Shown piece by piece: positions 9,485-24,918 of a DNA stretch of 40,512 nucleotides. Where the stretch lies: positions 1 to 40,512 of the forward strand of contig JABFSM010000069.1 in assembly GCA_013140635.1 (NCBI GenBank), read 5' to 3'. The translations under genes and the position numbers were made by a program. How positions within the stretch are numbered: position 1 is the first letter of the stretch; every line of letters begins with the position of its first letter. The notes under the pieces are model-generated. The model saw nothing but the letters and a program-made list of their open reading frames with translations. It was not told the DNA's origin and ran no database searches. The DNA is from Gemmatimonadales bacterium (GTDB lineage Bacteria > Gemmatimonadota > Gemmatimonadetes > Gemmatimonadales > GWC2-71-9).

Positions 9485-9957
9485 CATCGAAATCGGAGTT
9501 TACCGGGAGAAACGTCACCCCAAACGGAACCCACGTTAAGCCAAGCGTGGCATGCCCTTCAGGAGTCAAGAACTCGTCGCATCCTCTGAGCCTGCTCAAT
9601 GCGGAACAGCACGTCATTCCTCTTCATTCTTGGCAAGATCCTTCCAGCGGGCCGAGGCAGGGGTTTCCCGATCGAACCCAGAAGTGGTCCCGCTTCTCTG
9701 CAACCTGTTACCATCCTACCGGCATGCTCGTCGCATCGGCGTGCAGGAACTCCTGAAGCATTCCGTGGAGCGCCGTGAAACTGAGTCCGGGATCGCCATT
9801 GTTTTTCCAGCAAAGCGCTCTATACAGGTCTGACTGGTGCGTATCTTGAGCAGGGTGTTTGCGGCTGATGGACCCCCATGCGTACCGGTCGTACGGCGGA
9901 AGATGTATGCTTGTCGAGATATCGTTGTTTACCCTTGGTTTGGAGTGAGGCCAGCCC

Positions 9958-10386
9958 ATGTCTCGTCGCCCCTTGGCTATTCTCGTCGTCCTCGCCGGGT
10001 TAGTCGCATTCCTATCCCTACGCCAGCGCCTCCGGCCACTTCCGTCTAACCAGGAGAGCCCGTTCCACGCCTTATCTGCCAGTCTGATTGCTTCGACGGG
10101 AAGACCTCAGCTCCTCGAGTTCTTTCACAAGGCGTGACTGGTTTGCCGCGCCATGGCGCCCATCGTGCATGGGCTTGAGCAGGAATGGGGACAGCGGGTG
10201 GACTTCATCTACCTCGATGTCGCGGACTCCGCCAACACGGCGGCGAAGCACCGCTTCGGCTTTCGTGCAACCCCGCACTTCTTCCTCCTTGGACCAGATG
10301 GATCAGTCCAGCGCACTTGGCAGGGGCGCGTAGAACGAGACACCTTGGCCGTAGCGTTACGGGGACTTGTGGCCCGCTATGATTGA
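9958..10386 (+). CDS. Membrane-anchored thioredoxin-like protein with in-frame TGA at the first position of the CxxC motif (candidate selenoprotein; otherwise a pseudogene)
   Basis: Single continuous frame from ATG 9958 (GAGG 7 nt upstream) to TGA 10386 with one internal TGA at 10135-10137: MSRRPLAILVVLAGLVAFLSLRQRL...PQLLEFFHKA[U]LVCRAMAPIVHGLEQEWGQRVDFIYLDVADSANTAAKHRFGFRATPHFFLLGPDGSVQRTWQGRVERDTLAVALRGLVARYD. cis-Pro loop RATPHF present. Confidence 0.7.
10158..10174 (+). promoter_or_regulatory. Candidate bacterial SECIS-like hairpin downstream of the in-frame TGA
   Basis: GCCCAT-CGTGC-ATGGGC: perfect 6-bp stem, 5-nt loop with G at its second position; the loop starts 27 nt after the last base of TGA (10137). 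An overlapping palindrome GCGCCATGGCGC (10148-10159) could compete. Confidence 0.4.
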
Positions 10387-11344: not shown

Positions 11345-11674
11345 ATGCTGTCGCGCATACTCGTCTGGATCTTCTTTCTGGGACTCACTCCGGCTGGCCC
11401 CGAGCTGGTCGAATGGGTGAGTCATTACACCCAGGAGGGGGACTTTGCCGACGCTTCCGACACTCGGCACCGCCGAGCCCCGGCAGAACAAACCGAGCAT
11501 GGCTGTGCTGTCCTCTGTCACGCATGCGGCTGCCATGGCTCCACTGCTCCCGTCCGAGACATAGATCAAGTTGCTCCACGGTCACACCTGCCCCTCAAGC
11601 GCGCTTGGGCTGCCTCTACCCTACTTGTGGCCCAGGCCGAACCCGAACCTGTAACTCCCCCTCCAATTAGCTGA
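11345..11674 (+). CDS. Small secreted Cys/His-rich protein preceding the metal-efflux operon
   Basis: MLSRILVWIFFLGLTPAGPELVEWVSHYTQEGDFADASDTRH...EHGCAVLCHACGCHGS; hydrophobic N-terminus, Cys/His cluster, directly upstream of the TolC/CzcC gene. Confidence 0.6.
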   Translation: MLSRILVWIFFLGLTPAGPELVEWVSHYTQEGDFADASDTRHRRAPAEQTEHGCAVLCHACGCHGSTAPVRDIDQVAPRSHLPLKRAWAASTLLVAQAEPEPVTPPPIS

Positions 11675-19605: not shown

Positions 19606-20755
19606 TGTCTTGTCCCATTAATAAGATACATATATATTGGGTGGGGTCTTTCCCCCGTGAGGCCCCATGCGCACTGGCCGTCCGCGCGCCTTTGAACTCA
19701 CCGTCTCCCCGACTGAACGCGAGCAGTTGGCCGCCTTCGCCTCCTCCCGCGCCTTGCCCGCCGGACTCGTACGGCGCGCCCAGATCATCTTGCGCTCCGC
19801 CGAAGGCGAAGCGAACAGCGCCATCGCCCGGAGTCTCGGCGTAAGTGCGCCGTTGGTCGGTCTGTGGCGCACGCGGTTTCGGGACCACGGCTTAGCGGGG
19901 TTATACGATGCGCCCCGGGCCGGCCGCCCCCGGACGCACGACGATGGCGAGGTGGCCCGGATGCTGCGCACCGTGCGGCAATCCCGGCCCCGGGACGCCA
20001 CCCACTGGACCGTGCGCGCGGTCGCGACCAAGACCCGGATTAGTAAGAGCACGGTGCAGCGCTACTTCACGCTCTTCGGCGTCCAGCCGCATCGGACGAA
20101 GAGCTTCAAGCTCTCGCCCGATCCCTTCTTCGTGGAGAAGGTCCGCGATATCGTCGGGCTGTACCTGAATCCCCCGGATCAGGCGCTCGTGCTCTGTGTC
20201 GAGGAGAAGAGCCAGATCCAAGCGCTCGAGCGCACGCAACCCAATCTGCCGCTCGGCCTGGGCTACGTCGAAGGGTTCACCCACGACGACACGCGCCATG
20301 GAACCACCACCCTCTTCGCGGCCCTCGACCTCAAGAGCGGTGCGGTCTTCGCGCAGTGCAAACGCCGGCATCGCCATCAGGAGTTTCTCGCGTTCCTCGC
20401 GGACGTCGAGGTGAATGTCCCGCCCCATCTCGCCGTTCACCTCGTGGTCGACAACTACGGCACCCACAAGCACCGCAAGGTGAAAGCCTGGCTGGCGCGG
20501 CACCCGCGCTTCCACCTTCATTTCACGCCGACGTATGCCTCCTGGCTCAATCAGGTCGAGCGCTGGTTTGCGCTCATCACCCAGCGGGCCATTCGCCGCG
20601 GGTCCTTCCGCACCGTCCGGGAACTCATCGACCGCATTGAGCGCTTCGTCAAGACCTACAACGCAACCGCCCGCCCTTTTCGCTGGACCGCCACCGCCGA
20701 GAGCATCTTTGCCAAGCTCAATCGACTTACGCAACGAATCTCTGGGACTTCACAG
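19605..20755 (+). mobile_element. IS630-family insertion sequence, TA target duplication
   Basis: Left end GTGTCTTGTCCCA and inverted right end CTGTGAAGTCCCA (9/13 identical), flanked by TA at 19603-19604 and 20756-20757; encloses one IS630 transposase ORF. Confidence 0.75.
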
Positions 20756-20758
20756 TAG
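19667..20758 (+). CDS. IS630-family transposase (DDE)
   Basis: N-terminal HTH; LCVEEKSQIQALERTQPNLPLG; HLVVDNYGTHKHRKVKAWLARHPRFHLHFTPTYASWLNQVERWFALITQRAIRRGSF. Confidence 0.95.
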   Translation: MRTGRPRAFELTVSPTEREQLAAFASSRALPAGLVRRAQIILRSAEGEANSAIARSLGVSAPLVGLWRTRFRDHGLAGLYDAPRAGRPRTHDDGEVARMLRTVRQSRPRDATHWTVRAVATKTRISKSTVQRYFTLFGVQPHRTKSFKLSPDPFFVEKVRDIVGLYLNPPDQALVLCVEEKSQIQALERTQPNLPLGLGYVEGFTHDDTRHGTTTLFAALDLKSGAVFAQCKRRHRHQEFLAFLADVEVNVPPHLAVHLVVDNYGTHKHRKVKAWLARHPRFHLHFTPTYASWLNQVERWFALITQRAIRRGSFRTVRELIDRIERFVKTYNATARPFRWTATAESIFAKLNRLTQRISGTSQ

Positions 20759-21060: not shown

Positions 21061-23859
<2,799 letters not shown>

Positions 23860-23863
<4 letters not shown>

Positions 23864-24918
23864 GGGCGGCTCGGCGTGAGGGGGAGGGAGGTCATTCGGC
23901 CGCCCTGGGCGTGATGGGCCGCCACGAGCACCGCGGTGAGCACCGCCAGGCCGATGACCTGGTGGAGGACGGCGACGGTGATCGGCACCCTCAGGAGCAG
24001 GGTTGCGATGCCGAGACCGACCTGCACCAGCACGATCAGCCCCGCCGCCCCGGTCGCCCGGCGGAGCGGCATCGGCACGCCGGGCCTCCGGCCCGCGGCG
24101 GCGAGGGTGAGGAGGAACGCGGCGGTACCGAGAGCCAGAAGGCGATGGTGGAACTGCGCGGCGGCTGGGTTCTCGAAGGCGTTGCGCCAGCCGGTGCCGG
24201 GCAGGAGGTATCCTGGAGGCACGATCCGGCCCCCCATCAGCGGGAAAGTATTGTACACCTTGCCGGCGTCGAGGCCGGCCACGAAGCCGCCCGAGAGCAT
24301 GGTGACGATCGTCAGGCACACCGCCACCATCAACCGGACGCGCAGGGACGGCGGCGCTCCGCTCGGGGCGGGCCGGCGTGGCCCCAACTCCAGCGCCGTC
24401 CACACACAGACGACGTAGATGGCCAGCGCCATGCCGAGATGGGCGGTAAGTCGGTAGGGGCTGACGTCGAGACGGACTTCCAGGCCGCTCTTCACCATGT
24501 ACCAGCCTAACGCCCCCTGCGCCGCCGCGAGCACCGGGAGGAGAAGCAACCGTCGGCGGTGAGCCGGCCGGAGGTCATCTCGGAACAACAAGACGAAATA
24601 GGGCGCCGCCAAGACCAGCCCGACCAGGCGGGCGAGCAGGCGATGCACCCACTCCCACCAGAAGAGGGCCTGAAACCCGCCTAACGTGATTCCACGGTGA
24701 ACCGTCCGCGCTTCGGGAATGGCCAGATAGCGCCGGTACGCGTCATTCCATTCGGCGGCGGAGAGCGGCGGCAGGACCCCCGACACCGGCCGCCACTCGG
24801 TGATGGAGAGTCCGCTCTCGGTGAGCCGGGTAATGCCCCCGATCGCCACGGCGAGGACCACCGCGGCCGCCGAAGCCACCAACCAGCGCCGTACCCGGTC
24901 ATCCGAAGGAGCGCTCAT
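23860..24918 (-). CDS. ctaA: COX15/CtaA heme A synthase
   Basis: IGGITRLTESGLSITEWRPVSGVLPPLSAAEWNDAYRRY...GFQALFWWEWVHRLLARLVGL...GGFVAGLDAGKVYNTFPLMGG. Confidence 0.95.

Follow-up and report, generated by a model that had tools for sequence, protein, structure and literature searches.

A predicted membrane-anchored thioredoxin-fold selenoprotein encoded near metal efflux genes in Gemmatimonadales

A gene on the plus strand at positions 9958–10386 of the window (the whole 40,512-nucleotide stretch of DNA analysed here) is predicted to encode a membrane-anchored thioredoxin-fold protein of 142 residues, and this protein is, with a probability of roughly 0.93, a selenoprotein in which an in-frame UGA specifies selenocysteine (Sec) at residue 60. 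This reading is favoured over a nonsense mutation or a sequencing error by the combination of a TGA that occupies the same alignment column in all four orthologs, the presence of the sel genes and a conserved SECIS-like hairpin downstream of the codon. The same evidence supports the initial annotation, made from the sequence alone, in its proposal of a functional UxxC thioredoxin-like selenoprotein.

The coding region is a single frame that runs from ATG 9958–9960 to a terminal TGA at 10384–10386. Its sole internal stop is the TGA at 10135–10137, which corresponds to residue 60 of the read-through protein and is the putative Sec codon at the first position of the UxxC motif. The resolving residue, Cys63, is encoded by TGC at 10144–10146 and is invariant in the four orthologs, and a Shine–Dalgarno-like stretch, GGAGTGAGG, lies upstream of the start codon at 9942–9950 (all on the plus strand). 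The initial annotation had described a frame broken only by this TGA, a ribosome-binding site before the ATG, a TGA falling on the first Cys of a CxxC motif and a remnant open reading frame from ATG 10153 onward. All of these are found in the sequence as claimed, and the match to PF00085 makes residues 60 and 63 the CxxC pair. Ordinary gene finders cut the gene in two or drop it, so that the family is invisible in annotation. In the GC-rich window, a TGA interrupts 60 open frames with lengths of 58 + 82 codons or more, and a split frame by itself is weak evidence that is not remarkable statistically. What lifts this gene beyond chance is the identical position of the TGA codon in three orthologs.

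Apart from the window itself, a first search of 101 related genomes with the read-through protein yielded a single strong relative, 47% identical over the matched part and likewise with one TGA. A profile built from these two sequences recovered two more members among 399 genomes of the phylum, with a single TGA in each. Among the genomes searched, up to 399 from the phylum and 290 from the order, exactly four carry the protein; they come from two families and represent four genera, and this patchy distribution, 4 of 290, fits a putative horizontal spread. The sequences around the shared TGA are HKA-U-LVC in the window, HYG-U-MGC in G083, HPS-U-IGC in G273 and HPG-U-LGC in G284, which give the motifs ULVC, UMGC, UIGC and ULGC. 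Whole-protein amino-acid identity is 41–51% among the four orthologs and 41–44% between the window protein and the other three. Pairwise identity is 43–57% downstream of the TGA versus 27–47% upstream, and in the downstream part the third codon position is the most variable in all pairs.

Neither further members nor a Cys form turned up in the order (290 genomes) or in another sample of 398 genomes from the phylum; the next-best matches past the four orthologs are ordinary thioredoxins with CGPC. Pattern scans of a public genome collection, based on one protein and on the two-sequence alignment, also returned no relative, although the short exact peptide patterns that they use do not prove absence elsewhere, and the plasmid records searched contained none. 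The alternative raised in the initial annotation, a TGC/TGT-to-TGA nonsense mutation or a sequencing error, would make the protein an ordinary Cys thioredoxin and its gene a pseudogene or mis-call. It is scarcely credible: TGC and TGT are indeed one base off TGA and split frames are common in the window, but a TGA shared by three independent genomes makes sequencing error very unlikely, and neither error nor decay can explain a conserved TGA column with conservation that continues through it and is stronger in the downstream half. The same annotation had named disabling mutations in close relatives as grounds for rejecting the selenoprotein, and the three relatives are intact, with no lesion other than the TGA at the same codon.

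The protein matches PF00085 (Thioredoxin) over residues 44–133 with an E value of 8.5e-9, above the gathering score, when residue 60 is read as Cys. AlphaFold2 predicts a confident thioredoxin fold, with block means of 91–97 over residues 41–140, in which residue 60 is positioned directly before the helix spanning residues 61–77, and the closest PDB structures to the model are thioredoxins. The cis-Pro loop RATPHF at residues 103–108 (10264–10281, plus strand) is kept in the C-terminal half, in agreement with the initial annotation, and TPHFF is invariant in all four proteins. The PF00085 score and a fold with a cis-Pro loop place the protein in the thioredoxin superfamily. In each of the four proteins, U and the Cys at the third position after it are the only residues with a selenol or thiol group. 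The N-terminal hydrophobic segment, residues 5–24 (9970–10029, plus strand), is indicated by hydropathy and by a helix over the same residues in the model and may be a signal anchor or a signal peptide. In all four proteins, positive charges at the start precede a hydrophobic segment and, beyond it, a variable linker; we infer that the thioredoxin domain is membrane-anchored outside the cytoplasm.

Bacterial SECIS elements are described as having a loop of 3–9 nt with a G in the first two loop positions, a stem of 4–16 bp, a UGA-to-loop spacing of 16–37 nt and an energy of –7.5 kcal/mol or lower (PMC13188914). The window gene contains a SECIS-like hairpin, GCCCAU-CGUGC-AUGGGC, at 10158–10174 (plus strand), and hairpins of the form GCCCRU-CGUGC-AYGGGC occur in all four genes. 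Each agrees with every published criterion, with a 5-nt loop that has G as its second base, a 6-bp stem, 26 nt between the UGA and the apical loop and energies of –9.0 to –10.4 kcal/mol, and under these criteria it is the sole hairpin common to the four genes. One pair in the stem is compensatory (A-U in two genes, G-C in two); 85 of 500 alignment shuffles matched the observed covariation score, and this single covarying pair is weak evidence. Plain folding of the 61 nt downstream of the UGA shows no unusual stability, and in none of the four genes is the hairpin the minimum-free-energy fold of the whole 55–61 nt stretch, and the case for a SECIS element therefore depends on the shared hairpin together with a recoding control. 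Among 5000 sets of synonymously recoded sequences, a shared hairpin of 6 bp never arose, one of at least 5 bp arose in 2 sets and one of at least 4 bp in 74, a significance that is overstated because the control takes no account of the relatedness of the four sequences and counts each as an independent one. Among degenerate invariant codons, all four genes use the same one at 4 of 6 positions in the hairpin; the corresponding figures are 2 of 7 for the upstream part and 4 of 18 for the downstream part.

The window genome contains SelA, SelB, SelD and tRNA-Sec genes, the absence of which the initial annotation had put forward as a refutation. The tRNA-Sec has anticodon UCA and scores 70 bits, selD scores 391 bits, selB retains SelB winged-helix domains with its start cut off at a contig start, and of selA only a C-terminal fragment is present, at the end of a contig. 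Both truncations are probably due to assembly breaks. In each of the remaining three genomes there is a tRNA-Sec (UCA) and a selA above cut-off, so that this pair accompanies the protein in four of four genomes. Within the window, scans with Rfam and for tRNAs gave no hits. We dropped tRNA-Sec as an argument that singles out this gene, since about two thirds of the genomes in the order (195 of 290) encode it; the Sec trait is permissive and not specific to this gene. Formate dehydrogenase-like molybdopterin proteins, considered as other Sec users in the four genomes, contain no internal TGA.

The UGA could instead be a regulated stop that ends a short membrane peptide, with the thioredoxin core produced from ATG 10153 or by near-cognate read-through that inserts Trp or Cys. 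Met66, which this ATG encodes, is invariant in all four proteins. In ordinary thioredoxins too, however, the conserved Ala-Pro in the region of the CxxC helix is preceded by Met or Val, and a core that starts at Met66 would contain neither of the two active-site residues nor the first strand. The sel genes and the SECIS-like hairpin also speak against a regulated stop, which we consider very unlikely.

For the selenoprotein, the machinery and the hairpin suggest a mechanism in which SelB with Sec-tRNA-Sec, together with the hairpin 26 nt downstream, would decode UGA 10135 as selenocysteine. The N-terminal hydrophobic segment would then hold the thioredoxin domain at the outer surface of the inner membrane. 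In the thiol/selenol-disulfide reaction predicted there, Sec60 would be the nucleophile, with Cys63 as resolving residue. This reaction probably repairs or protects periplasmic targets during metal stress, a role that is proposed because metal efflux genes are found nearby and that, judged from the position of the protein and its neighbourhood, is plausible at about even odds.

The selenoprotein gene is followed on the plus strand by ynfA (UPF0060, PF02694; 10434–10766), which encodes a membrane protein, and by genes for a CzcC-like outer-membrane efflux protein (PF02321; 11728–12981), a CzcB/CusB-like membrane fusion protein (PF16576; 12986–14176), a CzcA-like RND pump (PF00873; 14184–17300) and a P-type ATPase that is probably metal-exporting (PF00122 and PF00702; 17635–19605). 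A small open reading frame with a Cys/His-rich centre, CzcI-like by eye, lies just upstream of the czcC-like gene at 11345–11674. An IS630-like transposase with DDE_3 and HTH domains is located directly after the metal efflux genes at 19667–20758. On the minus strand, 21061–22449 and 22487–24403 are adjacent paralogues that resemble tryptophanase or tyrosine phenol-lyase by eye.

The neighbourhood of the G273 ortholog contains CzcCBA-like genes and a cation diffusion facilitator (CDF). That of the G083 ortholog contains a convergent ynfA and genes for a CDF and for a P-type ATPase of the heavy-metal kind. HEAT-repeat-like genes were also noted by eye near these two orthologs (L081 11098–11979 in G273 and L080 2718–5195 in G083). 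In G284, ynfA is directly 3' of the selenoprotein gene; the stop codon of the latter overlaps the GTG start of ynfA (GTGA, L082 10471–10474), which suggests translational coupling of the two genes. ynfA thus adjoins the selenoprotein gene in three of the four genomes (in the window and beside the ortholog in two others), and metal efflux genes of the RND, CDF or P-type ATPase kinds are near it in three of four.

This neighbourhood may nevertheless be incidental, the selenoprotein being a general periplasmic reductase unrelated to metals; such a reading rivals the functional part of our proposal only. Metal efflux genes are common and mobile, the transposase lies in the same stretch, and the G284 contig has ynfA and a transporter-like gene with no clear metal pump. 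On the other side, ynfA recurs in three of the four genomes, and so do metal efflux genes. We regard an incidental association as a serious possibility, although somewhat less probable than not. We likewise propose only tentatively, at slightly under even odds, that the four proteins constitute an unnamed selenoprotein family, namely an inner-membrane-anchored, outward-facing thioredoxin that exists in the Sec form only and whose gene moves together with ynfA and heavy-metal efflux genes. If this proposal is true, metal resistance in the phylum would be connected with redox chemistry based on selenium.

Almost all selenoproteins have many Cys homologs (PMC12013277). The four known members described here all use Sec and none uses Cys, so the family would offer a good test of what Sec provides beyond Cys, and the metal efflux neighbourhood suggests a concrete physiological role. 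The frequency of tRNA-Sec in the order implies that a large and little-described selenoproteome is probably present there.

Sec-containing thioredoxin (PF00085, UxxC) is a known selenoprotein family (PMC13188914). The window protein resembles it in its thioredoxin fold, in its PF00085 match, in a UxxC motif with Sec as the nucleophile (predicted here) and in the UGA followed by a stem-loop. It differs, in a comparison with Sec thioredoxins by description only, in having an N-terminal hydrophobic anchor, and its family also differs from that group in that no Cys ortholog was found. In place of the usual W-C-G-P-C, the four proteins have [FY]H-x-x-U-[LIM]-[GV]-C, with no W and no GP, and the score against the classical thioredoxin equivalog TIGR01068 is 35.4 bits, compared with a cut-off of 96.8 bits. 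The NCBIfam families NF047660 (HUIPC motif), NF040730 (SaoT) and NF045500 (GOS_C) are likewise thioredoxin-like or UxxC selenoproteins, and neither these nor any other NCBIfam selenoprotein model matches the four proteins at E ≤ 10. TlpA/ResA/DsbE and TraF share the arrangement of an N-terminal anchor and a thioredoxin domain, but their profiles match weakly and these families use Cys. The literature found on selenoproteins and Gemmatimonadota contains no description of the family. With no named family found for it, the window protein is closest in kind to the Sec-containing thioredoxins, of which it is an anchored variant.
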